Positions 1,442 through 61,831 of a stretch of DNA of 64,000 nt are shown here, one piece after another (within the stretch, counting starts at the first letter, position 1; each line of letters starts with the position of its first letter). The stretch comes from Elusimicrobium sp. (lineage in GTDB: Bacteria > Elusimicrobiota > Elusimicrobia > Elusimicrobiales > Elusimicrobiaceae), in assembly GCA_015062115.1 (NCBI GenBank), contig SUVG01000002.1, positions 1 through 64,000 of the forward strand, written 5' to 3'. The position numbers and the translations under genes were made by a program. The notes beneath the pieces are model-generated. The model was not told the origin of the DNA. It saw only the letters and a list, made by a program, of their open reading frames with translations, and made no database searches.

Positions 1442-1969
1442 ATGAACCTGACAAAAGACCAAAAGAAACAAAAGTCGCAAGACTTAGCTTCTGAAATTAC
1501 CACTGCCGGCACCTTGTTCTTCACGGCCTATCAAGGCTTGAAGTTCGTGGATATGGCTGCTCTGCGTGCGGAATTGGTTCCTACCGGTGCGAAATTCCGT
1601 GTAGAACGCAACGCTATCGTAGAACACGCCATTCGCCAGGCCAACATTGAAGGGGCTGATTCCAAGCTCTTCCAAGGGCCGACGGCTATTGCGGTAGGCG
1701 GCGATATCGCTGCTGTTGCCAAAGCGTTGGTGGACTTTCAGAAAAAGTTTGCGGCTTTGAAGCTTCGCGCTTGCTATGCGGACGGTGTCTGGTACAACGA
1801 AGAACAGGTTAAACAATTGGCTACCATCGGTACCAAAGAAGAAAACCTTTCCAAATTGGCCGGTACCTTGCACAACTTGGTTGCGCAATCCGCTCAAGTG
1901 TTGCAAGCTCCGATACGGGATTTTGCCTACGTTATTAAAGCTGTTGAAGATAAACAAAACGGCAAATAA
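1442..1969 (+). CDS. rplJ: 50S ribosomal protein L10
   Basis: A 175-residue L10, the usual family length. It forms the base of the L12 stalk on the large subunit and anchors L12 dimers through its C-terminal helix. I place the start at the ATG of MNLTKDQKK: the frame stays open for 36 codons upstream, but that stretch has no L10 similarity and lies in the structured leader. The ribosome binding site before 1442 is weak (AGG), which suits a gene controlled at translation. It is followed by rplL after a 156-base structured spacer. rplK, rplA, nusG and secE, which often precede rplJ, are not here; a divergent kinase gene is. Confidence 0.95.
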   Translation: MNLTKDQKKQKSQDLASEITTAGTLFFTAYQGLKFVDMAALRAELVPTGAKFRVERNAIVEHAIRQANIEGADSKLFQGPTAIAVGGDIAAVAKALVDFQKKFAALKLRACYADGVWYNEEQVKQLATIGTKEENLSKLAGTLHNLVAQSAQVLQAPIRDFAYVIKAVEDKQNGK

Positions 1970-2125
1970 TAACGCGTCAGGTGTCAGTTGGCGTTATGCC
2001 AACTGATGCCCGGTAAAATCTAAACCCGCCAAGAGCGGTAGTAGCCCCGCAAGGGATAAAGGTACGGGCGTAAACTAGGTTTGCGCAGAAGGCCGCTACT
2101 CTATAGTAAAAAAGGAAATAATAAA
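1970..2125 (+). promoter_or_regulatory. Structured rplJ-rplL intercistronic spacer
   Basis: A 156-base gap inside an otherwise tight operon. It contains a perfect 9-bp hairpin, TCAGTTGGC (1984-1992) with GCCAACTGA (1998-2006) and a 5-base loop, not followed by a T-run. A second GC-rich part (about 2030-2100) has complementary blocks such as GCCCCG/CGGGC and AGCGG/CCGCT. It is probably an RNA processing or translational spacing element that lets L12 be made in excess over L10. Confidence 0.45.
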
Positions 2126-2509
2126 ATGGCTAAATTGACCAATGAAGAATTAGTAAATGCTATCGCTGAACTCACCGTTTTGGAACTCTCCGAACTCGTG
2201 AAAGCGATTGAAGAAAAATTCGGCGTAAAAGCCGCTGCCCCGGCCGTGGCCGTTGCCGCCGCTGCCGCCCCGGCTGCTGCTGCCGCTGAAGAAAAAGATG
2301 AATTCAACGTCGTGTTGACCGCTGTTGATGCCGCCAAAAAAATCGGCGTAATCAAAATCGTTCGCGAAATCACCGGCTTGGGCTTGAAAGAAGCCAAAGA
2401 CCTCGTTGAAGGTGCCCCGAAAGCCGTGAAAGAAAACGTTGCCAAAGCCGAAGCTGAAGAACTCAAAAAGAAAATTACTGAAGCCGGCGGTACCGTCGAA
2501 CTCAAATAG
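2126..2509 (+). CDS. rplL: 50S ribosomal protein L7/L12
   Basis: A 127-residue L12. An N-terminal dimerisation domain (residues 1-35) is followed by an Ala/Pro/Val-rich hinge (about 38-58) and the C-terminal globular domain, with the conserved helix around [12 protein letters not shown] that recruits translation GTPases such as EF-G, encoded 9 kb downstream. The start at 2126 is set by AAAGGA about ten bases upstream. An in-frame upstream extension lies in the structured spacer and is not L12-like. The operon continues into rpoB through a strong hairpin. Confidence 0.97.
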
Positions 2510-2530
2510 TTCAACCGATGAATTATTTAA

Positions 2531-2561
2531 TCCCAATCCCCCGGTTTTCCGGGGGTTGGGA
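2531..2561 (+). promoter_or_regulatory. rplL-rpoB hairpin (attenuator or processing site)
   Basis: TCCCAA plus CCCCCGG (2531-2544, with T2537 bulged) pairs with CCGGGGG plus TTGGGA (2549-2561): 13 pairs closing a TTTT loop. No T-run follows, so termination would be partial at most. Its position equals that of the attenuator and RNase III site between rplL and rpoB in Escherichia coli. Confidence 0.65.
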
Positions 2562-2661
2562 TTACGTGCCCTAAACAGGGTGCAACGACGGGCGGCGATT
2601 TTGGCGGCGAGTGCGTGCCGCGAAGAACTCCGACCGTTGACACTAGCAGGAAGAATAAGAA

Positions 2662-6516
<3,855 letters not shown>

Positions 6517-6533
6517 GCCGGGGATTTGAAACC

Positions 6534-9500
6534 ATGCAAACGAAAAAAGTTAAAAAATTAAACGAACTCAACTTCTTTGATTTTGATGCCATCAAATTGG
6601 GCATTGCCAGCCCGGAACAGATTTCGGCGTGGTCTTTCGGGGAAGTAAAAAAACCGGAAACCATCAACTATCGCACCCTTAAACCGGAGCGCGACGGTCT
6701 GTTCTGCGAACGCATTTTCGGGCCTACGAAAGATTACGAATGCTCCTGCGGAAAATACCGCTGGGTAAAATTCAAAGGCATTAAATGTGACCGCTGCGGT
6801 GTGGAAATTACGGAATCTAAAGTCCGCCGCGAACGCATGGGCCACATTGAATTGGCCGTGCCGGTGGCTCACGTGTGGTTCTTGAGAAAGAACCCCTCCC
6901 GCATCGGTATTATCTTGGATATGCGCACCAGCGATTTGGAACGCGTGGTCTACTATGCTTCTTATGTAGTAATTGAAGACTGTGTAGATAGCGTAACCGG
7001 CCGCGTAGACTTCAAAAAAGGCACGCTCCTTACCGACGTGCAAGTGCGCGAAGCCCGCAAAAAACACGGTGCCCGTTTGAAAGTGGACATCGGTGCCCCG
7101 GCTATTAAAACCTTGTTGGAAGGTATCGATTTTGACAAAGAAATCCCTGCCTTGCACGAACAATTGATTGCCACGCAAAGCGAAATGGAACGCACCAAAC
7201 TCATCCGCCGCATTAAAACGATGGAAGAGTTCAAAGAAAGCGGCAACCGCCCGGAATGGATGATTTTAAGTGTTCTTCCCGTTATCCCTCCGGACTTGCG
7301 CCCGCTCGTTCCGCTCGATGGTGGCCGCTTTGCCGCTAGCGATTTGAACGATTTGTACAGAAGAATTATCAACCGCAACAACCGCTTGAAACACATTGAA
7401 TCCTTGCGCGCCCCCGAAGTGATGATTTACAACGAAAAGCGCCTCTTGCAAGAAGCGGTGGACGCTTTGATTGAAAACGGCGCCCGCGGTAAAGTATTCA
7501 TCGGCCCCGGCGGCAGACCGCTTAAATCTTTGTCCGACAGCATTAAGGGTAAACACGGCCGCTTCCGCCAAAACTTGTTGGGTAAACGCGTGGACTATTC
7601 CGGTCGTTCCGTCATCGTCGTCGGCCCGAACTTGAAACTCCACCAATGCGGTTTGCCTAAACTTATGGCCTTGGAACTCTTCAAACCTTTCATCATCGGC
7701 GAACTTATGAAGAAAGAAGGCGTGACCTTGAAATCCGCCAAAAAGATGTTGGAAAGAGTTCGCCCGGAAATTTGGGATATCTTGGAAAAAGTAACCAAGA
7801 ATCACCCCGTTATGTTAAACCGTGCTCCCACCTTGCACCGCTTGGGTATTCAAGCCTTTGAACCGGTACTTATTGAAGGTAAAGCCATTCAGTTGCACCC
7901 GCTTACCTGTGCCGCCTTCAACGCTGACTTCGACGGTGACCAGATGGCCGTACACGTACCGCTTTCTTTGGAAGCGCAAATGGAAGCCCGCACTTTAATG
8001 CTTGCTTCCAACAACATTTTATCTCCTGCTTCCGGTAAACCGATTGCCGCTCCGTCCCACGATATGGTCTTGGGTGTAAGCTTCTTGACCAAAGTGAAAG
8101 ACGGCGATATCGGTGAAGGTTCTATCTTCGGTAGCAAGGAAGATGCCTTAGTGGCCTTGGAATACGGAAAACTTTCCTATCACGCCAAAATTAAAGTGCG
8201 CGGCATCAACGCTATCCCTGAACCGGGTGCGAACGGCAAAGCCGAAACCGATGCTTCCAAATGGAAAGATTATACCTCCGTGGGCCGCATTATTTTCAAC
8301 CAAGCCATGCCGAAAGGTTGGGAATATATCAATAAAACCATCGGTAAAAAAGAATTGGGCGCCTTGGTGGACGAATGTTACAAGAGCAAAAAGTATGGCC
8401 GCTATGAAGCCGTACAACTCTTGGATAAAATCATGAAAATGGGTTATCACTATGCCACCTTGTCCGGCTTGTCTATCTCCATTGCGGATATGACAATCCC
8501 GTCCGTCAAACAAAAATATATTGACGACGCCAAAAAGAAAGTGAAAGAAATTCAAGCCCAAGCCGAAGCCGGTATCATTACCGAAGGTGAACGCTATAAC
8601 AAAGTTATCGATATTTGGACTCGCGTTACGGACGATGTAGCCAACGAACTCTTCAAAGAAATGAAAAAATTTGAAGAATCTAAATACGATCCGTCCAACA
8701 AAGAACACAGCGGTCAACGCTTTAACTCCGTCTATTTAATGGCGGACTCCGGCGCCCGCGGTTCCCGCCAACAGGTACGCCAGTTGGCCGGTATGCGCGG
8801 TCTTATGGCTAAACCGCAAAAGAAACTTACCGGTGGTCAAGGGGAAATTATCGAATCTCCTATTACCGCTAACTTCCGTGAAGGTTTGTCCGTACTCGAA
8901 TACTTTATTTCCACTCACGGTGGTCGTAAAGGTTTGTCCGATACGGCTTTGAAAACCGCCGACGCCGGTTACTTAACCCGCCGTTTGGTGGACGTTGCCC
9001 ACAATGTGGTAGTAACGGAAGAAGACTGCGGTACCCACAACGGTATTGTGGTTAAATCTTTGATGAGCGGTGAAGAAATGGTGGAACCCATTGAAGAACG
9101 TATTTTGGGCCGCACCAGCTTGGAAGATGTCGTGGTGAAAGTGAAAAAAGCCGACGGCACCGAAGAAGAAAAAACCATCATCAAAGAAGGCGATTTAATT
9201 ACCTTGGAACAAAGCAAGCAAGTCAAAAAATATGGTGTGGAATCTGTACGCATCCGCTCCGTATTAACCTGCGAAGCCCCCTTCGGTGTGTGCTCTCGCT
9301 GCTATGGCTTGTCCTTGGCTACTTCTTCCAAGAGCAACCCCGGCGATTCCGTGGGTATCATCGCTGCCCAATCCATCGGTGAACCCGGTACGCAGTTAAC
9401 CCTTCGTACCTTCCACATCGGTGGTACGGCCTCCCGCGTGCTCTCTCGCAGCCAAGCGGTGGCCGAAATCGACGGTAAGGTAACCTTCAAAGATATCAAG

Positions 9501-10709
9501 ATTATTACCAACCGCTACGACAATAAAATTTGTATTTCCAGAAACGGCTCTATCTTTGTTGAGGCCGGAAATGGTACAATAAAAGAATACAAGATTCAGT
9601 ACGGCGCTTCCGTGTACACCGCGGATAAAGCGACCGTCAAAAAAGGCTCGCTCCTCGCGGAGTGGGACCCGCACTCTATCCCCGTGCTCGCGGAAGTTTC
9701 CGGCACGGTCCGTTTGACGGATGTGGTGGAAGGTATCACCTTGCAGGAAGAGCGCAACAAAGTAACGGGCGTAATCGAACGCAAAATTACCGCTAGCCGC
9801 ATGGGTAAGAAAAACCCGCGCATTAGCATCGACGGCAAAGACAAGAAAATCAATTTCCCCTTGCCTATCGATACGATTTTGATGGTAGAAAACGGTGAAG
9901 AAGTGGAACCGGGTGATGTGCTCGCTAAAATCGGGCGCGAAGCCGGCGGTACCAAAGACATCACCGGCGGTCTGCCCAGAATCGCGGAATTGTTCGAAGC
10001 TCGCAGACCCAAGAGCCCCGCTATTATTTCGGAGTTCGAAGGTATTGTAAGCTTGGAAACCTCGCCCAAAGGTTTGATTGAGGTGGTTGTACGCAACGAA
10101 GAAACCAACCAGGTTAAACAGTACAGCATTCCGCAAGGAAAACACCTTGTAGTATATGAAGGCGACCATGTAGGTGTGGGTGAAGCCCTTACCGACGGCG
10201 CCATCGACCCCCACGACGTGCTGCGCGTGAAGGGCGAAAAAGAAGCGCAAGAGTTCCTGTTAAACGCTATCCAAGAAGTGTACCGCTTGCAGGGCGTAAC
10301 AATCAACGACAGACATATCGAGGTTATTGTCCGTCAGATGTTAGGGAACGTGAAAATTCTGGATGCAGGAGATACGCATTTCCTCAAAGGCGAAGTGTTA
10401 AGCCGCGCCAGCTGGCTTAGAGAAAACGCCAAGATGAAAGCTGCCGGCAAACGCTTGGCAGATGCTGAAACGATCCTTTTGGGTATCAGCAAAGCGTCTC
10501 TCGCTTCCGAATCCTTTATTTCCGCGGCTTCGTTCCAAGAAACCACCAAGGTTTTGACGGATGCCGCTATCACGGGCCAGGTAGATGAACTTGCTGGTCT
10601 GAAAGAAAACGTAATCGTAGGCCATTTGATCCCCGCGGGAACTGGTATTTCCGCCAGACAAATTGCTGAAGAATTTGAACAAAAACGCAAAGAAACAGGA
10701 GAGAAGTAA
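6534..10709 (+). CDS. rpoC: DNA-directed RNA polymerase subunit beta'
   Basis: Full-length 1391-residue beta' subunit in one piece. The N-terminal zinc ribbon has Cys70, Cys72, Cys85 and Cys88. The catalytic loop NADFDGDQM places the three magnesium-binding aspartates at 465, 467 and 469. The second zinc site is [13 protein letters not shown] (about 909-921), followed by the trigger-loop region and the [15 protein letters not shown] block (about 945-959). The ribosome binding site before 6534 is modest (GGGGA), as expected for a gene translated closely behind rpoB. The stop codon is two bases before the rpsL start, so beta' and S12 are tightly linked. Confidence 0.98.
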
Positions 10710-10711
10710 TA

Positions 10712-11092
10712 ATGCCGACAGTAAACCAATTAGTAAAATACGGCCGGGCTAAAGAGTCCACTCGGACCAAATCCCCGGCGTTGCAGGCCTGCCCGCAAAG
10801 ACGCGGCGTCTGCACCCGTGTTTATACCACGACCCCTAAAAAACCGAACTCTGCTTTAAGAAAAGTAGCGCGTGTAAAACTCACCTCCAAAGTGGAAGTA
10901 ACCGCTTATATTCCGGGTGAAGGACATAACTTGCAAGAACACTCCATCGTGCTCGTGCGCGGTGGCCGTGTGAAAGACTTGCCGGGTGTGCGCTATCACA
11001 TCATCCGCGGTGCGCTGGACGCTTCCGGCGTAGAAAACAGAAAACAAGGCCGCTCTCTTTATGGTGTAAAGAGACCGAAAGCCGGAAAATAA
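10712..11092 (+). CDS. rpsL: 30S ribosomal protein S12
   Basis: A 126-residue S12, a decoding-centre protein of the small subunit. The conserved [12 protein letters not shown] and [16 protein letters not shown] loops, where streptomycin-resistance changes fall in other bacteria, are both intact and of the usual susceptible-type form. The ribosome binding site AGGAGAG lies within the end of rpoC. It begins the str cluster (rpsL-rpsG-fusA), here read through from the RNA polymerase genes. Confidence 0.97.
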
Positions 11093-11115
11093 TTTTTTAG
11101 GAGTTGAATAGTAAT

Positions 11116-11595
11116 ATGCCGAGAAAAGGTTTAAGACCCAGAGACAGAAGACCGCAGCCCGCGCCGGACTACAAATATAATTCCGTGCTCGTTGCCCGGT
11201 TCATTAACAAATTGAATTTTGAAGGCAAAACCGCCACCGCCACCCGCATTTTGGATGACGCCATGGCCATCATTGCCGAAAAAACCAACGAAAACGCTTT
11301 GGAAGTTTTCAACAAATGCATTGAAAACGTTCGCCCGCTCGTTGAAGTAAAAGCCCGCCGCGTAGGTGGTGCTAACTACCAAGTACCCACTGAAGTAAAA
11401 CCCTTGCGCAGCACCTCTTTGGCCATGAGATGGTTGATTGGTGCCGCTCAAAGCCGCAAAGGCCGCCCGATGGCTGAAAAATTGGCCGAAGAAATTATTT
11501 TGGGCTCCAAAAAAGAAGGTACTGCCTTTAAGAAACGCGAAGATGTGCACAAAATGGCCGAAGCCAACCGTGCCTTCGCCCACTTCAAATGGTAA
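11116..11595 (+). CDS. rpsG: 30S ribosomal protein S7
   Basis: A 159-residue S7, primary binder of the 3' major domain of 16S rRNA. The start is the ATG of MPRKGLRPR. AGGAG at 11099-11103 sits 12 bases upstream, and an in-frame TTG four codons earlier directly abuts that site, so it cannot be used. The conserved stretches ARRVGGANYQVP and RPMAEKLAEEI are present. In Escherichia coli S7 represses the str operon; no obvious S7 operator is visible in the short gap from rpsL. Confidence 0.96.
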   Translation: MPRKGLRPRDRRPQPAPDYKYNSVLVARFINKLNFEGKTATATRILDDAMAIIAEKTNENALEVFNKCIENVRPLVEVKARRVGGANYQVPTEVKPLRSTSLAMRWLIGAAQSRKGRPMAEKLAEEIILGSKKEGTAFKKREDVHKMAEANRAFAHFKW

Positions 11596-11609
11596 TTGGG
11601 AAATAAGAT

Positions 11610-13712
11610 ATGGCTGAATTTAAAACCTATCCGTTAGACAAAATCAGAAACATTGGTATTATCGCTCACATTGACGCGGGTAAAACCACCACTTCCGAAC
11701 GCATCTTGTACTACACCGGTAAAGTGCATAAAATCGGCGAAACGCACGATGGTGCTTCCGTTACCGACTGGATGGAACAAGAAAGAGAAAGAGGTATCAC
11801 CATTACCTCCGCCGCTATTTACTGCGTATGGAAAGATTGCCAACTCAACATTATTGACACTCCCGGCCACGTGGACTTCACCGCCGAAGTGGAACGTTCT
11901 TTGCGTGTGTTGGACGGCGCCGTCTGCTGTTTCGATGGTGTGCAGGGTGTAGAACCCCAATCTGAAACCGTGTGGCGCCAGGCGGACAAATACCATGTTC
12001 CCCGTATCGCTTACATCAACAAAATGGACCGCATCGGCGCGGACTTTATCCGCTCCGCCAACTCCATTAAGGAAAAATTGGGCGGTAACGCCTGCCCGAT
12101 CCAACTTCCTATCGGTGCCGAAGACAAATTCATCGGTATCGTGGACTTGGTAAAAATGAAAGGTATTATTTGGGACGGCGACCACAACGGTGCTACTTTT
12201 AACGAAGTAGAAATTCCGGCTGACCTCGCGGACGCTGCCCAAAAAGCCCATACGGAAATGATTGAAAAACTCGCCGATTTCGACGAAGTCATCATGGAAC
12301 GCTACTTAAACGGCGAAACGGAATTTACGGTTGAAGAAATCAAAGCCGCTATCCGCAAAGGTACGCTTACCGGTAAATTCTTCCCTGTAATTTGTGGTTC
12401 TTCCTACAAAAACAAAGGCGTGCAACCGCTTTTGGACTGCGTAAACGATTATCTACCCTCTCCTGTAGATGTACCCGCAGTCAAAGGGACTAACCCCAAC
12501 ACGGGCGAAGAAGTATTCCGCAAACCTGAAAACAAGGAACCTTTCTGCGGTCTTATCTTCAAAGTACAAACCGACCCCTTTGTGGGTAAACTCAGTTTCT
12601 TCCGCATCTATTCCGGTACTATCAAAGCCGGTGATGCTGTATTCTTCCCGGGCAAAAACGCCACGGAAAGATTCGGCCGTATGATGCGCATGATGGCCGA
12701 CAAACGCGAAGAAGTAAAAGAACTCGGTGCCGGTGAAATTGCCGCTACCGTGGCTATCAAAAACTCTCGCGTAGGCCAAACCATCTGCTCTCCCGAACAT
12801 CCGATCGTGCTTGAAAGCATTTCCTTCCCGGAACCGGTAATTTCTATCGCCGTGGAACCGAAATCTAAAGCCGACGAAGAAAAAATGTCCAACGCGTTGG
12901 CCCGCCTCGCCGAAGAAGACCAAACCTTCCGCGTCCGCACCGACGAAGAAACCGCCCAAACCGTTATCAGCGGTATGGGTGAACTCCACTTGGACATCAT
13001 CGTGGATCGCATGAAACGCGAATTTAACGTGCAAGCCAACGTAGGCGCTCCGCAAGTAGCCTATCGCGAAACCATCACCAAAACGGTGGAACAAGAAACC
13101 AAATTCGTCCGCCAGTCCGGTGGTCGTGGTCAATACGGGCACGTATTCTTGCGCCTCGAACCGCAGGAAAAAGGCAAAGGGTTTGAATTCGTTAACGAAA
13201 TTACCCAAGGCCGCATTCCGAAAGAATACATCCCTGCCATCGAAAAAGGTTGCCGCGAAGCGTTGGACTCCGGTGCTATGGCCGGTTACCCCTTGGTGGA
13301 TATTAAAGTGGCCGTATTTGACGGTTCTTTCCACGAAGTGGACTCCTCCGAAATGGCCTTCAAAATCGCTGCTTCTATGGCCTTGAAAGACGGTGCCAAA
13401 AAAGCCAACCCGGTTATTTTGGAACCGATCATGAAAGTAGAAGTTGTGGCTCCGGAAGCCAACTTGGGCGACATCATCGGTGACCTCAGCTCCCGCCGCG
13501 GTCAAATCGGTGAAATGGGTGTGCGCGGTAACGTGCGCTACGTAAAAGCCGAAGTTCCGCTCGCTGAAATGTTTGGTTATGCTACGAACGTACGCTCCTT
13601 GTCTCAAGGTCGTGCTTCGTTCACCATGGAACCCAGCCACTATGCTGAAGTTCCGGCCAACGTTGCCAAAGCGATTGTGGAAAAACGCACTGCTGAAAAA
13701 GTGGCCGCGTAA
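11610..13712 (+). CDS. fusA: Elongation factor G
   Basis: A 700-residue translocation GTPase of normal size. The G domain shows AHIDAGKTT (19-27), [17 protein letters not shown] and NKMD. Domains II to V follow, with the domain IV segment [13 protein letters not shown] intact. It drives movement of tRNA and mRNA after peptide bond formation and also helps recycle ribosomes. It sits 14 bases behind rpsG and is the last gene of this transcription unit; a strong terminator follows. tuf, often next in the str operon, is absent from the window. Confidence 0.98.
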
Positions 13713-13734
13713 TTCACGCAAGCATTTAACAATA

Positions 13735-13772
13735 AACTCCCCGATATGCCATTGGCTATCGGGGAGTTTTTT
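13735..13772 (+). terminator. Terminator of the rplJ-fusA operon
   Basis: Perfect 12-bp stem AACTCCCCGATA (13735-13746) / TATCGGGGAGTT (13757-13768) followed by six T. It ends the first translation and transcription block. Confidence 0.93.
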
Positions 13773-13816
13773 GTTGGCAGAAGAACTAAAAATAAGAGAG
13801 GAGAAACTTTTGTATT

Positions 13817-13825
13817 TGGTATAAT
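13817..13825 (+). promoter_or_regulatory. Extended -10 promoter of the lipoprotein pair
   Basis: TGGTATAAT, an extended -10 element, with no -35 match at 16-18 bases. The start codon follows about 28 bases downstream, with AAAGGAG before it. Confidence 0.7.
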
Positions 13826-13853
13826 ATCTCATACCTAAATAAAGGAGAAAAGA

Positions 13854-14210
13854 ATGAAAGTAATCGCTTTATTGTTTGCTGCCTTGTTATTCGTGGGATG
13901 TGGCACGGTGGAAAAAGGTTATTCGCCGATTGATTTGAAGGCCAAAAATTATGCCGAAGCCTTGAAATCTGCAGATAAATCTTGCCAAATCGATGCCGAT
14001 TGCACCTCTGTTTCCAAGGGTTGTTGTTTGTGCCACGGCAAAGAAGCCGTTAATAAAGATGCCGCCAATGCGCTCAAATCGTTTTGGTTGAACGAATGTG
14101 CCACTGCCGCTTGCACCTTGCAAATGTGCTATGTGGAAATTAACACTTCCTGCCAAAAAGGCCAATGTGTAGGTACACCGAAACCCATGCGTGAGTACGC
14201 CGCCTTCTAA
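13854..14210 (+). CDS. Cysteine-rich lipoprotein, copy 1
   Basis: A 118-residue secreted protein of unknown function. The signal peptide MKVIALLFAALLFVGC ends in a lipobox (LFVGC), so the mature N-terminal Cys should be lipidated and membrane-anchored. The mature part carries ten further cysteines in the pattern KSC-x5-C ... GCCLC ... C-x5-C-x4-C, likely disulfide-bonded outside the cytoplasm. The next gene encodes a paralogue with the same cysteine spacing and the shared words ADKSCQ, DADC, EAVNK and MCYV. The pair has its own promoter and terminator. Similar DxDC ... GCC proteins occur as uncharacterised secreted proteins in other phyla; I assign no function. Confidence 0.75.
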   Translation: MKVIALLFAALLFVGCGTVEKGYSPIDLKAKNYAEALKSADKSCQIDADCTSVSKGCCLCHGKEAVNKDAANALKSFWLNECATAACTLQMCYVEINTSCQKGQCVGTPKPMREYAAF

Positions 14211-14219
14211 GGAGAAAAA

Positions 14220-14564
14220 ATGAAAAAACTATTATTGTTAACTTGCTGTGCGGCTGTTCTTTCCGCGTGTGCGGCCTCTAACCCCGGCATCAATGCCGTT
14301 CCTGCCAAACTAACCGCCGCTATTAAAAAAGCCGACAAATCTTGCCAAGTAGATGCCGACTGTGTGGCCGTTCAAAAAGGTTGCTGTATGTGTGCCGGTT
14401 ACGAAGCCGTCAACAAAAATGCCGCTACCAAAGTGGAAAGCGTGTTTGAAAAACAATGTGCCAGCGGTGCTTGTACGCGTGAAATGTGCTATGTGCAAAT
14501 CGAGCCCATTTGCAAACAAAATGTTTGTACCGGAAAACTTATTTTGCCCAAAGGCCAAAACTAA
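14220..14564 (+). CDS. Cysteine-rich lipoprotein, copy 2
   Basis: A 114-residue paralogue of the preceding gene, nine bases after it with its own ribosome binding site (AAGGAG). The lipobox is LSAC at the end of a 17-residue signal peptide. Shared with copy 1: DKSCQxDADC, KGCCxC, EAVNK, the central Cys pair and MCYV. The tails differ. It is clearly a tandem duplication that has since diverged. The mature N-terminus has a short Ala/Ser/Pro-rich linker before the cysteine domain. Function unknown; a surface or periplasmic binding, inhibitor or redox role would fit the cysteines, but nothing in the sequence decides. Confidence 0.75.
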   Translation: MKKLLLLTCCAAVLSACAASNPGINAVPAKLTAAIKKADKSCQVDADCVAVQKGCCMCAGYEAVNKNAATKVESVFEKQCASGACTREMCYVQIEPICKQNVCTGKLILPKGQN

Positions 14565-14580
14565 TTACTGTCTTGATTTA

Positions 14581-14612
14581 AAAAACCCCGCCTATTAACA
14601 GGCGGGGTTTTT
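14581..14612. terminator. Bidirectional terminator
   Basis: Perfect stem AAAAACCCCGCCT (14581-14593) / AGGCGGGGTTTTT (14600-14612). It ends the lipoprotein pair on the plus strand and the ankyrin gene on the minus strand; the stop codon of the latter begins in the loop. Confidence 0.93.
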
Positions 14613-15374
14613 TGTATCTTCCAGTAACTGGATAATTCCCGTCAAATTTTTTTCTTTGGCTAGATCCAAAGCGGTCTTACCTTCGTTGTTCTTAATTCGG
14701 GAATCAATGGTGGGTTGTTGTAATAAAATTTCCACTATATCTTTATGTTCGTTCCATACTGCCACATGCAAAGGGGTGTTGCCATTGGCGGCATAGGGAG
14801 TGTTCACAAATTCGGGGTATTCGGCCAAAGTAGTGCGCAGGGTTCTTTCGTCCTTATCAATAACCGCCTGAAGAACAGGGGAGATAAAATTAGGTTTTTT
14901 AAGTCCCTTTTCCTCTTTCTTGGATTGTTCTGCTTGTTGTTTTCTTCGTTTTTTCTCGACTTGTTGAAACTCTTCCCATTTAAGGCGCTCTTCTTTTGGC
15001 GTCTTCATTTTTTTCCAATAGTAGGTAATGCCAAATATAGTATTGACGATGAAAGCAATAAATAAAACAGGGCTTAACACAAACAGCAAAAATATCATTA
15101 ACCAACCTGCACCTTGAGAGGCTGTTGGGTCGTTTGGATAGTTCATTTTTGCCAAAACACCACAACCATAAGGAAACACAAAAATAATGCAAAATAAACC
15201 TATGAGAATATAACGGCTGATTAAATATTTTCTTTTAATGCGCACATAAGAAGGTTCGGGAATAGTATCCGGAGCTTGCTGTTTGGTCAAATGCGGAATG
15301 GGCTTTTTCTTGGCTGCGCAAAAAAAAGCAATGAGAAGGCCTAAAGGAATGATGGCTGATATTAAAAGAATCAT
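14595..15374 (-). CDS. Membrane protein with C-terminal ankyrin repeats
   Basis: A 259-residue protein. Hydrophobic segments lie at about 2-20, 52-75 and 90-120, with a charged Lys/Glu/Gln-rich coiled segment (about 122-160) next. The C-terminus holds about two ankyrin repeats: NGNTPLHVAVWNEHKDIVEI (about 197-216) followed by NNEGKTALDLAKEKNL (about 228-243). Ankyrin repeats bind other proteins; the partner is unknown. The gene is monocistronic, on the strand opposite its neighbours. Its stop lies inside the shared terminator. I do not recognise a named family. Confidence 0.65.
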   Translation of the reverse strand: MILLISAIIPLGLLIAFFCAAKKKPIPHLTKQQAPDTIPEPSYVRIKRKYLISRYILIGLFCIIFVFPYGCGVLAKMNYPNDPTASQGAGWLMIFLLFVLSPVLFIAFIVNTIFGITYYWKKMKTPKEERLKWEEFQQVEKKRRKQQAEQSKKEEKGLKKPNFISPVLQAVIDKDERTLRTTLAEYPEFVNTPYAANGNTPLHVAVWNEHKDIVEILLQQPTIDSRIKNNEGKTALDLAKEKNLTGIIQLLEDTKNPAC

Positions 15375-15507
15375 AAAATCACCTTTTCTCTATTTACAAA
15401 AAGCTCCAGTTATTATACAATATACTAAGCGAATTTTAGTGCTAAAACATTGAAAGCGAAAGGGTGAAACACGCGAGTAAAATGTATAGCGCAAAAGCCC
15501 GTAAATT

Positions 15508-15516
15508 TGGTATAAT
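15508..15516 (+). promoter_or_regulatory. Extended -10 promoter of the S10-spc-alpha operon
   Basis: TGGTATAAT at 15508-15516 with no -35 match. It is the same form as the lipoprotein promoter at 13817. It lies 122 bases before rpsJ and is the only good promoter match ahead of this large ribosomal cluster. Confidence 0.7.
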
Positions 15517-15522
15517 AAAATG

Positions 15523-15638
15523 TACTGAATTGGACTTAGGTAAGAAATTCCTAGCACCGGCTCGTCGAGGATAACGAACCGGAGTAGGGATTTCTGCCGA
15601 ATAATTTTTTTGTAAAAAACATTTAAGGAAAACCAAAA
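15523..15638 (+). promoter_or_regulatory. Structured leader of the S10 operon
   Basis: The leader contains AGAAATTCCTA (15543-15553) paired with TAGGGATTTCT (15585-15595), 11 pairs with one G-U. An inner CCGG (15557-15560) / CCGG (15579-15582) helix caps a loop holding CTCGTCGAG. After it come a T-rich run and AAGGA before the rpsJ ATG. S10 operons are controlled by L4 binding to the leader in Escherichia coli; a similar role here is inference. Confidence 0.55.
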
Positions 15639-15983
15639 ATGGCAGAAAAAACAGAAAAAAAGGCTAAAGTATTGAGCCAAGAAAGAATCCGCATTAAATT
15701 GCGTTCTTACGACCATCGCATGTTGGACGCCTCCGTTTCCCGCATCGTGGAAACCGCGCAGAAAACCGGCGCCATCGTGGCGGGTCCTGTTCTTCTCCCG
15801 GTTCGGATTAAGAAGTACACCGTGCTTCGCTCTCCCCATACCGATAAAAAGAGCAGAGAACAATTCGAAATGCGTATTCATAAAAGACTCATTGATCTGA
15901 AAAGTCCCACCTCTAAAACCGTCGATGAATTGATGAAACTCGACTTGCCTGCCGGCGTAGATGTGGCAATCAAAAGCAACTAA
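15639..15983 (+). CDS. rpsJ: 30S ribosomal protein S10
   Basis: A 114-residue S10 with a short Lys/Glu-rich N-terminal extension of about ten residues before the conserved [15 protein letters not shown]. The loop [25 protein letters not shown] matches the family; its tip is written here in full only to about 20 residues in other members. S10 binds the head of the small subunit and, with NusB, takes part in transcription antitermination. It is the first gene of the S10 cluster, behind a structured leader, and 21 bases before rplC. Confidence 0.96.
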
Positions 15984-16004
15984 TTAATTAGGAACTGAAG
16001 AGAT

Positions 16005-16796
16005 ATGACAGAAGAAATCAAAAATGCTGCTGGTGCCCAAGAGGCAACCCCTGTTGCTGAAGTGGCCAAAGCAGAAACTGTCAAAGAAGCGCCCGAAACT
16101 TTCCGCTTTGTATTAGGCGAAAAACTCGGTATGACGCAAATCTTTGATGAAAAAGGCAATCTTCATGGCGTTTCCGTTGTAAAAGCGGGCCAATGCAAGG
16201 TTGTGCGTGTCAGAACCCAAGAAAAAGACGGCTATACCGCCGTATGCGTGGGTTTTGGCGAAGTGAAAGAAAGCAAACTTAACAAACCGGAACTCGGTTA
16301 CTTCAAAAAAGCCAACGTCGCTCCGGTCAGACACATGAAGGAATGCCGTGTCGCGGACGTGAACGGTTTTGAAATCGGTCAAGTCATTTCACTCGAAAAA
16401 ATCTTTAAACCCGGTGATTATGTAGACGTACAGGGTAAAATCAAAGGCCACGGTTTTGCTGGCGCCATGAAACGCCACGGCTTTGCCGGTCAGCCCGCTT
16501 CGCACGGTGCTTCCGACAGAGAAAGAGCCCCGGGTTCTTTGGGTTCCCGCCGTTCTTTGGGTAAAGTGCTCTCCGGTCAACGCATGGCTGGTCACTACGG
16601 CACCACCACCCACACCGTATCCAAAATTGAAGTTGTAAAAGTGGACAACGAAAACGGACTTATCTTCTTGAAAGGTTCCGTGCCCGGTGCCAAAGGCTCC
16701 ATCGTGTCCGTCTTGGAAACTTCCAAATACAAAAAACACTATGTGGCGCCTCAGGAACATAAAGTATCCGCTTCCAAGGCTGCTAACAAGAAGTAA
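16005..16796 (+). CDS. rplC: 50S ribosomal protein L3 with N-terminal extension
   Basis: A 263-residue L3, longer than the usual 205-220. The first 35 residues are an Ala/Glu/Val/Lys-rich extension before the conserved LGEKLGMTQIFDE. A short basic tail also follows the usual end. The central loop reaching the peptidyl transferase centre is recognisable as HGFAGAMKRHGF and HGASDRERAPGS. L3 is an early assembly protein of the large subunit. The ATG at 16005 is the only start after the upstream stop that gives a good ribosome binding site; a shorter start near residue 35 is not available as ATG. Confidence 0.95.
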   Translation: MTEEIKNAAGAQEATPVAEVAKAETVKEAPETFRFVLGEKLGMTQIFDEKGNLHGVSVVKAGQCKVVRVRTQEKDGYTAVCVGFGEVKESKLNKPELGYFKKANVAPVRHMKECRVADVNGFEIGQVISLEKIFKPGDYVDVQGKIKGHGFAGAMKRHGFAGQPASHGASDRERAPGSLGSRRSLGKVLSGQRMAGHYGTTTHTVSKIEVVKVDNENGLIFLKGSVPGAKGSIVSVLETSKYKKHYVAPQEHKVSASKAANKK

Positions 16797-56293: not shown

Positions 56294-57457
56294 ATGAGCG
56301 AAAAAACTTTAAGAAAAGGAAACGAAGCCCTCGCCGAAGGTGCAATCCGCGCCGGGGCCCGTTTCTTTGCCGGGTATCCTATTACCCCGCAAAATGAAGT
56401 GCCGGAATATATGTCTGCCCACATGGCCGAAGCCGGCGGTGCTTTTGTGCAAGCCGAAAGCGAAGTGGCCGCTATCAACATGGTATATGGGGCCGCGGCT
56501 ACTGGTACGCGCAGTATGACATCTTCTTCCTCTCCCGGTATCAGTTTGAAGCAGGAAGGTATTACTTATTTAGCCAGTGCGGACTTGCCGTGTTTAATCG
56601 TCAATGTAATGCGCGGCGGCCCGGGTTTGGGCAGTATCGGCGGAGCGCAGGGTGATTATTTTCAAGCCACCCGCGGCGGCGGTAACGGAGATTACCGCGT
56701 CATTGTTCTTGCCCCGAACTCGGTGGAAGAATTGGGTAATTTTCCGAAACTCGGTTTTGAACTTGCCGAAAAATACCGTATGCCCTGTATGATTTTAGCC
56801 GACGGTATTTTGGGCCAAATGATGGAAAGTATGTCCTTTAATTTTGACCCTATTGACCCCAATACCTTGGGTAAATTTGATTGGGCGGTGGATATTCATA
56901 AAAACGGCCGCCCGAAAAATAAAGTTTTTTCTTATAAAGGCGACGATTTAATTGCCGATGTGACCGAACGCGCCAAACGCTACGGACTGATCGAAAAAAC
57001 CGAATCTCTTTACGAAGAACGCAATACGGAAGATTGCGATGTGTTGTTGGTAGCCTACGGCCTTTCTTCACGTGCGTGCCTGGAAGCGGTCAACAAAGCC
57101 AAAGAGGAAGGCCTAAAAGTGGGGCTTTTCCGCCCGATTACCTTGTGGCCTTTCCCCTCCAAACGCTTAAGCGAACTGGCCGCAAAAACCAAAGCCATTT
57201 TAACGGTAGAACAAAGTTTAGGGCAGTTGGTGCAAGATGTTAAACTCTCTGTCAACGGGAAAACGCCCGTCTATCTAAATGCCTATCCTGCCGGCGGCCA
57301 GCCGGACGGATCTTCTATCCTTACGGCCGTGCGTTCGATTTTTGACGGTTCCAAAGAAGGTCTTTTCGATTTGCAGGAACATGCAGACGGCTTTGCCTAT
57401 GAGTGCAAACGCGACTCTTCGTTAGGAATCCAGGGCGACTGGAAAGGAGGCAAATAG
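56294..57457 (+). CDS. korA: 2-oxoacid:ferredoxin oxidoreductase, alpha subunit
   Basis: A 387-residue subunit with the pyrimidine-binding half of the TPP site. The N-terminal GNEALAEGAIRAGARFFAGY and PITPQNEVPEYM, then ESEVAAINMVYGAAATGTRS and GGPGLGSIGGAQGDYFQATR mark it. The C-terminal half has the usual DVLLVAYGLSSRACLEAV and LTVEQSLGQLVQDV. It works with the beta subunit to decarboxylate a 2-oxoacid and form the CoA ester. Twenty-one bases separate it from korD; three from korB. Confidence 0.94.
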   Translation: MSEKTLRKGNEALAEGAIRAGARFFAGYPITPQNEVPEYMSAHMAEAGGAFVQAESEVAAINMVYGAAATGTRSMTSSSSPGISLKQEGITYLASADLPCLIVNVMRGGPGLGSIGGAQGDYFQATRGGGNGDYRVIVLAPNSVEELGNFPKLGFELAEKYRMPCMILADGILGQMMESMSFNFDPIDPNTLGKFDWAVDIHKNGRPKNKVFSYKGDDLIADVTERAKRYGLIEKTESLYEERNTEDCDVLLVAYGLSSRACLEAVNKAKEEGLKVGLFRPITLWPFPSKRLSELAAKTKAILTVEQSLGQLVQDVKLSVNGKTPVYLNAYPAGGQPDGSSILTAVRSIFDGSKEGLFDLQEHADGFAYECKRDSSLGIQGDWKGGK

Positions 57458-57460
57458 ATT

Positions 57461-58204
57461 ATGACGATTCTTGCCAAAAAACCTCAATGTTTAACCGATT
57501 TACCCATGCACTATTGCCCCGGATGCGGACACGGAATCGTGCACCGTTTAATGGGGGAAACTTTTGATGAACTCCATATCGCTGATCGCGTAATTGGGGT
57601 GGCCCCGGTGGGCTGTGCCGTGTTTGCAGACTCTTATTTTGCGTGCGATATGGTACAAGGGGCTCACGGGCGCGGCCCGGCGATTGCTACCGGCATCAAA
57701 CGCTCCAAACCCGGTTCTATTGTGTTTTCGTACCAAGGAGACGGAGACCTGGCCTCTATCGGCATGGCCGAAATCGTACATGCCGCGGTGCGTAGCGAAA
57801 ATATCACCGTTATTTTTATCAATAATGCCATTTACGGTATGACGGGTGGCCAAATGGCTCCTACCACCTTGGTCGGGCAAGTGGCTACCACTGCCCCCAA
57901 AGGGCGCGATCCGAAACTGCAAGGTTGGCCGATTAACATGTGCGAGATGCTTTCGCAAATTACCGGAGCCAAATACTTGGAACGCGTAGCGGTAGATTGC
58001 CCCCAAAATGTGATGAAGGCCAAAAAGGCTATCAAAAAAGTATTTGAAAACCAAGTAAACGGAGTGGGCTTTTCCATGGTGGAAGTTCTTTCGCAGTGTC
58101 CCACCAACTGGCACGCCAATGTGCCCCAAGCCTTGGAATTTGTGCGCACGAAAATGATGCCGCAATATCCGTTGGGCGTATTTAAGGACGAGGGGGCCAA
58201 GTAA
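57461..58204 (+). CDS. korB: 2-oxoacid:ferredoxin oxidoreductase, beta subunit (TPP-binding)
   Basis: A 247-residue TPP-binding subunit. The magnesium-TPP motif runs from GDGDLASIG (near 95) to NNAIYGMTGG (near 124). The N-terminal MHYCPGCGHGI holds two cysteines that, with a later Cys, may bind a cluster. GGAGG precedes the start. It is the catalytic partner of korA. The complex is anaerobic by nature (oxygen-sensitive) and supplies reduced ferredoxin, likely central to energy metabolism here. Confidence 0.94.
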   Translation: MTILAKKPQCLTDLPMHYCPGCGHGIVHRLMGETFDELHIADRVIGVAPVGCAVFADSYFACDMVQGAHGRGPAIATGIKRSKPGSIVFSYQGDGDLASIGMAEIVHAAVRSENITVIFINNAIYGMTGGQMAPTTLVGQVATTAPKGRDPKLQGWPINMCEMLSQITGAKYLERVAVDCPQNVMKAKKAIKKVFENQVNGVGFSMVEVLSQCPTNWHANVPQALEFVRTKMMPQYPLGVFKDEGAK

Positions 58205-58205
58205 T

Positions 58206-58739
58206 ATGTATCAAGGAATTAGAATAGCCGGTTTCGGCGGTCAGGGTGTAGTTTCCGCAGGTATTTTGCTTGCTCAAGCCGGGGTGGAGGATAAAAAGAA
58301 CGCCAGTTGGCTCCCTTCCTATGGGCCGGAAATGCGCGGCGGTACGGCCAATTGCTCCGTAGTAGTAACGGACGGAGAAGTCTATACGCCGATTGTTTCC
58401 GCGCCCGATACGGTTATCGTGATGAACGAGCCGTCTTTACCTAAGTTTGAACCGCTGCTTAAAAAAGGCGGACTTATGATTATTAACAGTTCGCTTATTA
58501 ACTCCCGCCCTACGCGAGATGATATCAAAGTGGTCTGCGTACCGTGCAACCAAATTGCCGAAGGGTTGGGTATGGATCGAATTGCCAATTTGGTGGCTTT
58601 GGGGGCTTTTATCAAGTTGACGGGGGCCGTTACCTTGGAAAGCGTTACAAACGCCATGAAAAAGGTTTATAAACGCGCTAAACCGGAAATGCTGGAACTA
58701 AACAAAAAAGCACTGCAAGCCGGTTTCGAGGCGGTTTAA
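58206..58739 (+). CDS. korC: 2-oxoacid:ferredoxin oxidoreductase, gamma subunit
   Basis: A 177-residue subunit with the family opening IRIAGFGGQGVVSAGILLAQ and SYGPEMRGGTANCSVVVTD. It binds and positions CoA together with the other subunits. It starts one base after korB. The following terminator closes a four-gene operon. Confidence 0.93.
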   Translation: MYQGIRIAGFGGQGVVSAGILLAQAGVEDKKNASWLPSYGPEMRGGTANCSVVVTDGEVYTPIVSAPDTVIVMNEPSLPKFEPLLKKGGLMIINSSLINSRPTRDDIKVVCVPCNQIAEGLGMDRIANLVALGAFIKLTGAVTLESVTNAMKKVYKRAKPEMLELNKKALQAGFEAV

Positions 58740-58753
58740 CAACAGGTTTAAGA

Positions 58754-58780
58754 AACCCCGGGGAAACCCGGGGTTTTTCA
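58754..58780 (+). terminator. Terminator of the kor operon
   Basis: AAACCCCGGG paired with CCCGGGGTTT around a four-base GAAA loop, followed by TT. The stem is very stable. Confidence 0.88.
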
Positions 58781-58844: not shown

Positions 58845-58861
58845 ATGAGAAAGGAGACTTT

Positions 58862-60055
58862 ATGAAAAAATTGATTTTAGGTGTACTTTGTTGTACTTTA
58901 CCTTCTTTGTTGTTTGCACAAATCTCTAAACATTCCGGCAAGATAATCAAAGCGGGAAAAGCGGCCGGGACATCGTTTGCTGTTCCTAAAATTCCTGCAG
59001 ATGTGGCCGTCGGTTTGCGCCCTGATTATTGGAAAACGGCTACGGTAATTATGGATAAATTAAAAAATTATCAGCCTGCTCCTATTAAAGTTTCCACTCT
59101 TCGTTATGAAGAGGGCTTGGAATTGTACCGCACATTAGATTTTAAGAAGCCGGAAGTGTTACGCGCGGAACTTTTGGCTCACGGAGAAGAGGAAAGTGCC
59201 CGTATTTTCGAACAATACCGCGACGATTTAAAAAACTTTTTAGATATTAAAAAAGAATTTGATATCTTTTTGGGATACCAGAAATTTGAACCCAAACCGA
59301 TTACTTTTTCCGAGCAAACCCGTTTGGTTAAAATGTTGGAAGAAGCCCAATCTGCTTTGTCCGGATTGAGCATGGTGCTGGGAAAAAAGACTCCTGCTAT
59401 TCATTATGCTACCTTGTGGGTAAGAAATGTATATGCTTCTATCAGCCCGATGGCTGCCAGTTTAATGGCTCCGGCGCAGGAATCTTTGTTGGAAAAAACT
59501 TTTCACGAGGGCAGAATTTTTAATGTAGATGAATTTTTGCTTAAAAATCCAAACGGAGCCCCTCTGCGTTCCCCCTTCGCCACTCCTAATGCCGAAGAAG
59601 TTTCCGAAGCGTTAGGGCAAGCGCAGCAACTTCCTGCCCGTACGATTGCCTTTTTGAACGATGACCCTGAAATTTTAGAGTGGGCGCGTGATTGGGGCAT
59701 GAAAGGATATTTCGGCAAAGGGACTCGTGTAGCTACTTTTGATTCCATGGAAAAATTGGTAGATTGGGTAACCAGTGGCGTAAAGTATGATGTGATTTTC
59801 TTGGACTATGTGTTGGAAGACGGCTTGAGCGTGTATGTAGCAGATGAACTGCGCGCGGCCGGCAACATGGAGACGGTGGTTCTCTTAAACAGTGCTTTGG
59901 AACCCCATGAAGTTCCGGCGGAAGATTTGTTCCAGCACGGGGTAGACGGGTTTGTTACCTCCGTAGGTTTCCGTCCCGATACAGGTTGGGTGGGTATTAC
60001 CAACGCTTTGCATAATTATGAAGTATACAAAGCCAAAAACGGTTGGAAACGTTAA
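58862..60055 (+). CDS. Secreted protein with C-terminal receiver-like domain
   Basis: A 397-residue protein. The signal peptide MKKLILGVLCCTLPSLLFAQ is clear, so the protein should leave the cytoplasm. The first 240 mature residues are alpha-helical without a recognised family. Residues about 262-375 look like a response-regulator receiver domain: Asp267 and Asp268 for the acidic pocket, Asp315 in DVIFLDYVLEDG for the phosphoacceptor, Ser344 at the switch Thr/Ser place. The usual Lys is replaced by Ser367 (VTSVGF). Spacings of 47, 29 and 23 residues match CheY (44, 30, 22). A receiver domain outside the cytoplasm would be very unusual. The gene has its own promoter and terminator. Confidence 0.55.
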   Translation: MKKLILGVLCCTLPSLLFAQISKHSGKIIKAGKAAGTSFAVPKIPADVAVGLRPDYWKTATVIMDKLKNYQPAPIKVSTLRYEEGLELYRTLDFKKPEVLRAELLAHGEEESARIFEQYRDDLKNFLDIKKEFDIFLGYQKFEPKPITFSEQTRLVKMLEEAQSALSGLSMVLGKKTPAIHYATLWVRNVYASISPMAASLMAPAQESLLEKTFHEGRIFNVDEFLLKNPNGAPLRSPFATPNAEEVSEALGQAQQLPARTIAFLNDDPEILEWARDWGMKGYFGKGTRVATFDSMEKLVDWVTSGVKYDVIFLDYVLEDGLSVYVADELRAAGNMETVVLLNSALEPHEVPAEDLFQHGVDGFVTSVGFRPDTGWVGITNALHNYEVYKAKNGWKR

Positions 60056-60075: not shown

Positions 60076-60105
60076 AAAAACCTCTGCTTCGGTAGAGGTT
60101 TTTTT
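60076..60105. terminator. Bidirectional terminator
   Basis: AAAACCTCT (60077-60085) with AGAGGTTTT (60094-60102), eight-base loop, T-runs on both strands. It serves the secreted receiver-like gene and the convergent MFS gene. Confidence 0.9.
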
Positions 60106-61312
60106 ATGAAAGGTTTTCTCTGGGGTCTCGTCGTTCCAGACAGGCTGCCAACCAAGTAAATAAAAGCCCGGGAACGGCTGCCAAGCAACAACACAAAACC
60201 GCTATTTTAAGAGTCCAGCCGTCCGAAATACGCCCCACCAAGATGGGGGAAAAAGCATCGCCCAGGGCATGAATAATAAATATATTAACGGCAAAAGCCA
60301 TAGAGTGAACCTTGGTGCGGGTAGAGGATACAATCGCCGCGGAAATCGGCCCTGTAGGCAAAAATAAACAAATAACGGCCAACCCGAAAGAGGCTATTGC
60401 TGTATAAAAATTTTGTGTTTGTATGCCTATCCAGGCCGGGGCGAGTAACCCCACAAGTGATAGCCCCATCACCCAAAAATAGGCTTTTCCTGTTTTCTTT
60501 AATAACAAGTCGGCCAATTTCCCGCCGGTAAAAGTTCCTATAGCCCCGCATACTACCACCAACGCACCGAATACGGTGCCTGCCTGTGCCACGCTCATAT
60601 CCAAATAACGATGCAAATAAGTCGGCATCCAGGCAGAAAGTCCGCCGATAATAAAAGTAATCATGGCATGGGCTAAGCAAATAAACAAAAAAGGTTTGTT
60701 TTTAAGCAGGGCCAAATAATCGGTTAATTTGGGTTTTTCTTCTTTGGTTTGCAATTCGCGCCGTTCGTCTTTAAGCCCGACCCCGGCCCAAAGCCCCAAA
60801 AACACGCCCGGTATGCCTGCCAACATAAAGGCCGCCTTCCACCCCCAATGTTGACCAATAAGCCCGCCCAGCAGGTAGCCAAGCGCACTGCCGGCCGGAA
60901 GTGCCAGGCCGAATAATGCCAACGCGGTGGCGCGCTTTTCCTGCGGATATTTTTCGGCCAAAAACGGTTGGGCAATAGCGGTAAAACCGCCTTCCCCGAT
61001 GCCGATAAAAGCCCGTGCAAACAATAATGAAAAGAAATTTTTGGCAGCGGCACAGAATAGAGTAGCCGCGCTCCACATAAGCGCACTGGTGGCAATCCAA
61101 CGGGGGCGGGGGGTTCTGTCGGCAAAGTAACCCACAAGCGGAGCATAACACATATATACCACTATAAAAACGGAGGCCAAACTGCCGAGTTGCAAGTCGG
61201 TGAGGGCTAAGTCTGTTTGTAATAGCGGAAAGACGGAATAGAGCACTTGCCTGTCAATATAATTTAACAGGTTAAGGCCAAATAATATCCAAAATAATTT
61301 GCGAGTGCTCAT
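60104..61312 (-). CDS. MFS transporter, Spinster-like
   Basis: A 402-residue, twelve-helix carrier of the cytoplasmic membrane. NLLNYIDRQVLYSVFPLLQT, FADRTPRPRW and GIGEGGFTAIAQPFLAEKYP match the bacterial Spinster (Spns) group of the major facilitator superfamily. Substrates in bacteria are mostly unknown; relatives in animals carry lysophospholipids or sphingosine phosphate. The loop between helices 6 and 7 is short and basic. It is monocistronic, with a shared terminator. The specific substrate cannot be stated. Confidence 0.85.
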   Translation of the reverse strand: MSTRKLFWILFGLNLLNYIDRQVLYSVFPLLQTDLALTDLQLGSLASVFIVVYMCYAPLVGYFADRTPRPRWIATSALMWSAATLFCAAAKNFFSLLFARAFIGIGEGGFTAIAQPFLAEKYPQEKRATALALFGLALPAGSALGYLLGGLIGQHWGWKAAFMLAGIPGVFLGLWAGVGLKDERRELQTKEEKPKLTDYLALLKNKPFLFICLAHAMITFIIGGLSAWMPTYLHRYLDMSVAQAGTVFGALVVVCGAIGTFTGGKLADLLLKKTGKAYFWVMGLSLVGLLAPAWIGIQTQNFYTAIASFGLAVICLFLPTGPISAAIVSSTRTKVHSMAFAVNIFIIHALGDAFSPILVGRISDGWTLKIAVLCCCLAAVPGLLFTWLAACLERRDPRENLS

Positions 61313-61351
61313 AAGGTTTCTTTTATTATTCTATAAAATTAAAAATAATTG

Positions 61352-61357
61352 TATAAT
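61352..61357 (+). promoter_or_regulatory. -10 box of pilin 3
   Basis: TATAAT in TTGTATAATG, 21 bases before the ATG. The -35 region is AT-rich without a consensus match. Confidence 0.5.
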
Positions 61358-61378
61358 GAAGTATCTTTAGGAGGAACT

Positions 61379-61831
61379 ATGAAAAAAGGTTTTACACTTA
61401 TTGAACTTTTGATTGTAATGGTTGTATTGGGTATTTTGGTAACGATTGCCATGCCGAAATATCGTGCGTCGTTGGAGCGCGGTCGCGCCATGGAAGGAAT
61501 TACCAATTTGCGCGCCGCCAGCGATGCTATGAATGCCAAATATATTATGAACGAAAATGTGTACACTCGGGATGGAGTTGTAGATTCAAACCAAAATTTT
61601 TTAATGGGAAACATTGCTAAAAGCCGAAGTTTTACTGCTCCTCGGTTGGAAAGCGGTGGGGACACAACAGCCACTATTCGCGTGATTCGGGAAGGCGGAG
61701 AATATGAATTGTGGGCTGAAAATGTAGACGGCGAATTAAAATATATTACCTGTACCGGTGATACGGAACTTTGCCAAGCCATCGGTGCGGAACTCGTCGG
61801 TACTCAATATATCTTTGATTTTAGAAAGTAA
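61379..61831 (+). CDS. Type IV pilin-like protein 3
   Basis: A 150-residue prepilin with leader MKKG and mature start FTLIELLIVMVVLGILVT; the Glu at +5 is present. The short globular domain has a Cys pair near the end (ITCTGDTELC). The ATG at 61379 is set by AGGAGG; an earlier in-frame ATG would give a non-pilin leader. It is unlike pilins 1 and 2 outside the helix. It stands alone between divergent and convergent genes. Confidence 0.87.
   Translation: MKKGFTLIELLIVMVVLGILVTIAMPKYRASLERGRAMEGITNLRAASDAMNAKYIMNENVYTRDGVVDSNQNFLMGNIAKSRSFTAPRLESGGDTTATIRVIREGGEYELWAENVDGELKYITCTGDTELCQAIGAELVGTQYIFDFRK

Follow-up and report, generated by a model that had tools for sequence, protein, structure and literature searches.

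A gut bacterium appears to export a domain that normally acts inside cells as a phosphate-operated signal switch. The domain forms the C-terminal part of a protein encoded in the window, i.e. the 64,000-nucleotide stretch of Elusimicrobium DNA that was analyzed (contig SUVG01000002.1, positions 1 to 64,000), and recurs in 115 relatives. Few bacterial domains are as common as receivers, which are regarded as cytoplasmic; an apparently exported family suggests that the fold of the switch serves another purpose there. We estimate a probability of roughly 55% that the exported pseudo-receiver is a binding or structural module, with a pocket that is perhaps cation-dependent, and that it operates outside the phosphorelay.

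From N- to C-terminus, the protein consists of a predicted signal peptide, a bundle of helices and a receiver fold of the (beta-alpha)5 type (Table 1). The host genome has 1.44 Mb (95.6% complete) and the window lies on its contig 2. The gene is flanked on one side by a 2-oxoacid:ferredoxin oxidoreductase operon (56294-58739; Pfam for genes 1 and 3) and on the other by a convergent MFS transporter gene (60104-61312; Pfam), which also adjoins a family gene in five further loci (L006, L008, L010, L045 and L046). No operon partner was recognised, the Pfam-named neighbours being hydrogenase, DUF1646, oxidoreductase and transporter genes. A scan for promoters and terminators gave no excess over shuffled sequences; two terminator-like hairpins seen by eye (58753-58779 and 60080-60106) are absent from the list of the scan. 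Past the MFS gene there is a type IV pilin-like gene (N_methyl, Pfam; 61349-61831), and a cluster of neighbouring genes (c1; 39 genes from 24 loci) that often occupies similar positions may be of the same kind.

Table 1. Features of the gene for the apparently exported receiver-like protein and its product (positions in the window).
Feature	Position	Strand	Basis
AGGAG, likely ribosome-binding site	58852..58856	+	by eye, 5' of ATG
Gene for the predicted exported receiver-like protein, 397 aa + stop	58862..60055	+	ORF list, sequence
Signal peptide, residues 1-19, predicted cleavage LFA↓Q	58862..58918	+	sequence, family pattern
Linker and short helices of low conservation and model confidence, residues 20-91	58919..59134	+	pLDDT block means 39-63
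Helical bundle, residues 92-213	59135..59500	+	AlphaFold2, fold of part alone
Conserved linker motif, residues 217-230, invariant Phe225 (family EFFL..P)	59510..59551	+	family alignment
Receiver-fold domain and C-terminal tail, residues 256-397	59627..60052	+	Pfam, AlphaFold2, Foldseek, VIA-align, profiles
Asn266-Asp267 at receiver acidic-pair place	59657..59662	+	alignment to receivers
Asp315 at phosphoacceptor place, invariant 115/115	59804..59806	+	alignment of 115 relatives
Ser344 at switch Ser/Thr place	59891..59893	+	alignment of 115 relatives
Ser367 at conserved-Lys place	59960..59962	+	alignment of 115 relatives
C-terminal helix tail ending NGWKR, residues 385-397 (family NYFYYRxLxGWxR)	60014..60052	+	family alignment

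The original prediction, a receiver-like domain at the C-terminus, is borne out by structure modelling and by homology. AlphaFold2, supplied with an alignment of 41 sequences (A3), returned a model with a mean pLDDT of 79.0 and a pTM of 0.61, in which residues 261-393 follow the (beta-alpha)5 order, strands 261-265, 289-293, 311-315, 339-344 and 363-366 alternating with helices 269-281, 296-304, 323-332, 353-358 and 375-393; from residue 251 on, pLDDT ranges from 78 to 97 per block of 10 residues. CheY was the top match in VIA-align (Z 14.5, rmsd 2.3, 126 aligned), and Foldseek matched single receivers such as 6ont (target TM 0.75). Against PF00072, the window protein stays below the cut-off of 30.2 bits, with 17.6 bits for the whole protein and 19.8 bits for its C-terminal part; a paralogue from the same genome (C1:226420) exceeds it with 32.1 bits, and PF00072 is matched by each of the 41 A3 members at E<=0.01, with 2.9e-13 as the best value. 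A profile of the family (A1, 49 rows) detected 226 PDB sequences at E<=1, the best 60 of which are almost all response regulators or kinase receivers, with a designed protein on top and one uncharacterized protein among them. As the same profile also recovers ordinary regulators across the phylum, chance resemblance to receivers is ruled out, and the existence of 115 relatives rules out a one-off fusion or frameshift.

Residue counts are based on 143 ORF hits, of which 116 were left after removal of duplicates and 115 after exclusion of L116, aligned with receivers from the genome of the window. L116 (1,873 aa) was removed from the family, as it displays by eye the layout of a protein kinase plus hybrid histidine kinase, without a signal peptide. 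Another candidate, L082 from Deltaproteobacteria, is not a member either, but an ordinary receiver of 137 aa. The second acid and the phosphoacceptor are Asp in all 115 relatives, and the invariance of these two residues argues for a pocket that has been preserved and not lost to decay. The first acid is acidic in none of them (Asn in 102), the switch position is Ser or Thr in 110 and Ala in 5, and Lys occupies the receiver Lys position just once. Selecting members by profile biases the set towards conserved positions; the Lys column nonetheless shows free variation. The single relative with Lys is encoded at L042:8284-9444. Arg331, Gly360 and Asp362 are likewise invariant in the 116-row alignment, and in the window protein Glu and Ser replace the usual Pro at D+4 and the usual Gly at D+8, respectively. 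The original prediction holds with one amendment, its exchange of the conserved Lys for Ser being confirmed. Its acidic pair, probably Asp267-Asp268, has to be moved by one residue: the receiver pair is Asn266-Asp267, its first acid is lost, and residue 268 is Asp in just 49 of 115 relatives.

With PF00072 receivers, i.e. CheY and response regulators, the family thus shares the fold, sequence homology, the second acid, the phosphoacceptor Asp and the Ser/Thr, but it differs in its predicted export, in the missing Lys and first acid, and in having an N-terminal helical bundle in place of an output domain. None of the 115 relatives retains all five active-site residues of a phospho-accepting receiver. 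Pseudo-receivers (PsRs) are defined in a review as recognised receivers in which at least one of the five active-site residues is missing (PMC12632262), and judged by these published residue criteria the family consists of pseudo-receivers. Like the bacterial PsRs treated there, its members are receiver-like and yet devoid of residues needed for phosphotransfer. The pattern of loss differs: according to the same text, the second acid (DD2) is non-acidic in ~80% of PsRs, while D, T and K are each retained in ~65%, whereas the present family keeps D and DD2 invariant and has almost always lost K. In receivers, the metal ligands are the acidic pair, with the second acid in direct contact, and the oxygens of the phosphoryl group are held by T and K (PMC12632262), so that loss of K with DD2 and D kept spares metal binding more than phosphoryl chemistry. 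The invariant phosphoacceptor Asp in a Lys-less pocket separates two pocket roles, metal and phosphoryl binding, and the 115 sequences provide a natural set for testing receiver function without phosphotransfer. How bacterial pseudo-receivers switch on and off is called a mystery in the abstract of the review, whose main text does not contain the words periplasm, signal peptide, extracellular or secreted. In the open-access literature searched, we found no description of exported receivers; apparently new here is a pseudo-receiver by residues and fold that seems to be exported and combines retained and lost residues in an unusual way.

Export of the protein and cleavage of its signal peptide are likely, judged from sequence only. 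The N-terminus consists of MKK, the hydrophobic stretch LILGVLCCTLPSLLF and the junction Ala19↓Gln20, in agreement with the clear signal peptide claimed originally; neither of two outcomes that would speak against the original prediction, absence of a receiver fold or, as judged from sequence, of a signal peptide, was encountered. A simple home-made score assigned a signal-peptide-like N-terminus to 102 of the 105 complete ORFs of the family (106 were scored with four misses, of which one, the non-family L116, was left out); this score is permissive: 104 of 261 neighbours, including transporters and scored at the first start only, were accepted as well, and so were 12 ORFs among 50 ordinary receivers, two of them at the first start. 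Two of the three family members without a signal peptide by score overlap places listed with an in-frame stop. More discriminating is the dipeptide AQ, which 74 of the 105 family ORFs have 14-36 residues past the first start, versus 12 of 117 neighbours. Cysteines are also rare: beyond residue 45 the family has 117 in 45,597 residues as compared to 604 in 42,145 residues of 117 neighbours (hydrogenase genes excluded), and 40 of 105 members versus 11 of 117 neighbours are free of Cys. Ordinary receiver ORFs are fairly poor in Cys too (75 in 12,800 residues), which makes this argument weaker against them than against the neighbours. The very low model confidence of residues 23-43 fits a flexible mature N-terminus.

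The helical part, folded alone (window 59135-59629), reached a pLDDT of 83.8. Foldseek returned no match for it under E 0.001, and its best VIA match (Z 9.3) is within the chance range for helical bundles. For none of the origins weighed, i.e. a PhyR-like sigma part, dimerisation helices of histidine kinases or a sensor bundle, did Foldseek or VIA find an informative relative; PhyR and the sensor domains of McpS and KinB appear in the lists of structure matches, which proves nothing on the origin of this part. PhyR, a cytoplasmic protein, resembles the window protein in that a helical N-terminal part is followed by a C-terminal receiver, and it ranks near the top when the whole model is searched with Foldseek. 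However, whole-chain TM is just 0.26 at an rmsd of ~16, which does not show the helical parts to match.

Queried with the window protein (E<=1e-3), 45 of 90 genomes of its taxonomic family gave a match. These were 43 of the 66 genomes from its own genus and 2 of the 18 from a second genus (g5); the other four genera had none. When profile A1 was run over 294 genomes of the phylum, full-length relatives were confined to the own genus plus two giant proteins of the second genus; among the matches listed elsewhere, the receiver part was covered, in some cases with a slight stretch before it, and the two of these outside cases that were read, L116 and L082, proved ordinary. Of 20 loci, 14 come from records named Elusimicrobi- (MAGs of Elusimicrobiales/Elusimicrobiaceae), five from records labelled just uncultured bacterium and one from a Deltaproteobacterium with an ordinary receiver; two (L077, L079) are titled as from rumen. 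The genome of the window encodes three family members beside seven ordinary receivers. Family members occur as single genes, in tandem arrays and as C-terminal modules of proteins of 1,800-2,360 aa; most have ~370-400 aa in all. The window gene belongs to a separate subfamily, its nine nearest relatives from eight genomes being 41-44% identical over the full length.

In the loci examined, the arrays comprise one to five family genes and are located between a DUF1646 gene and genes for NuoE-like, NuoF-like and [FeFe]-hydrogenase proteins (Pfam). Among the best 30 DUF1646 loci from 66 genomes, 19 adjoin a family gene and 6 adjoin the NuoE-like gene without a family gene, the neighbour lying beyond the stretch examined in the other 5; thus, gain and loss of family copies take place at a fixed site. 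At least four array members carry an in-frame stop (G047:C38:7588-8760, G064:C2:36842-37957, G052:C1:184361-185461 and G046:C59:1143-2237) and are therefore decaying copies beside intact ones. The receiver part is under purifying selection: in 90 pairs of >60% identity, its dN/dS is mostly 0.03-0.2, with part of the pairs saturated at synonymous sites and given no ratio. As these values are usually below those of the N-terminal part, with exceptions, the receiver part is the most constrained section.

These observations support the original proposal of an exported receiver fold with a role other than phosphotransfer, through the fold and the PF00072 homology, the loss of Lys and first acid and the predicted family-wide signal peptide, and they add to it the invariant Asp site and second acid, the tandem expansion and the capping of giant proteins. 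We envisage that export by the Sec pathway and trimming after Ala19, as read from the primary structure, would yield a Lys-less pseudo-receiver joined to a helical bundle. Once exported, the receiver fold would take no part in a phosphorelay and would serve as a binding or structural module. The acidic pocket (Asp267 and Asp315, with Ser344) would be under selection, most plausibly, going by the roles of the residues in receivers, because it holds a divalent cation, although binding of a cation should suffer from the loss of the first acid. The cation would lock the alpha4-beta5-alpha5 face and the aromatic C-terminal helix in one conformation, and these two may form the contact surface for any putative partner. 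The receiver of KdpE, crystallised with bound calcium as shown by the title of structure 1zh2, has the same fold; KdpE is an ordinary cytoplasmic response regulator.

Alternatively, helical bundle and receiver-like fold could constitute a C-terminal module for sorting or attachment to the surface or to a secretion machine that recognises the tail NYFYYRxLxGWxR. This would explain why the module is at or near the C-terminus in all architectures, whether alone, behind longer N-terminal parts or in proteins of 1,819-2,357 aa, and the tail is widely conserved in the family. However, the majority of members, being so short, hold little else to sort, the nearest relatives of the window protein (L004-L011) end differently (ALTPH.. 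or similar), and the arrays had no recognisable secretion genes as neighbours (neighbour clusters, Pfam), so that we regard a sorting function as unlikely.

Still less probable, in our view, is a true switch in which the exported pocket is chemically active, through an Asp phosphorylated by an external donor or through phosphatase-like activity. We know of no ATP-driven donor outside the cytoplasm. The two invariant Asp residues and the well-kept Ser/Thr would suit such chemistry, and phosphorylation can survive changes at DD, T or K (PMC12632262), but Lys and first acid are missing and no kinase recurs beside the arrays. A convergent histidine kinase gene accompanies some long-type members only (449-502 aa; L002, L092, L093, L104, L108 and L121). 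At these loci it is followed by a YrdC-like gene, and the whole arrangement is probably plain synteny. The N-terminus might also be just a membrane anchor or misread, leaving an atypical regulator in the cytoplasm, where ordinary receivers reside; the three members without a recognisable signal peptide and the home-made nature of the score would be compatible with this. Yet the A-Q junction past the hydrophobic stretch is found again and again among relatives of just ~20-45% identity, and Pfam recognised neither a DNA-binding nor an enzymatic output domain in the window protein. According to the positive-inside rule, positive residues before a hydrophobic stretch leave the remainder outside; such residues precede the stretch here, and the rest of the protein should thus be outside. 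A cytoplasmic location therefore appears improbable to us.

Going beyond the binding or structural module that we favour, a tentative extension, to which we give less credence than to the module itself, is an extracytoplasmic switch: a gut lineage of Elusimicrobiota would export diversified Lys-less receivers, which stand alone or end giant exported proteins, and their invariant two-Asp pocket would be worked by divalent cations, or another donor, and not by a histidine kinase. Giant proteins that end in the module are L050 (2,163 aa, 5554-12042), L052 (1,819 aa, 4193-9649) and L101 (1,867 aa, 1755-7355). In their middle parts lies a stretch whose His and Cys are invariant among five aligned copies and which looks caspase-like by eye; Pfam gave nothing convincing on three copies of it. 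The giants of the second genus, L051 (2,351 aa, 9113-16165) and L115 (1005-8075), have ~2,350 aa with the module near the C-terminus, and L051 carries a Trypsin_2 domain (Pfam).
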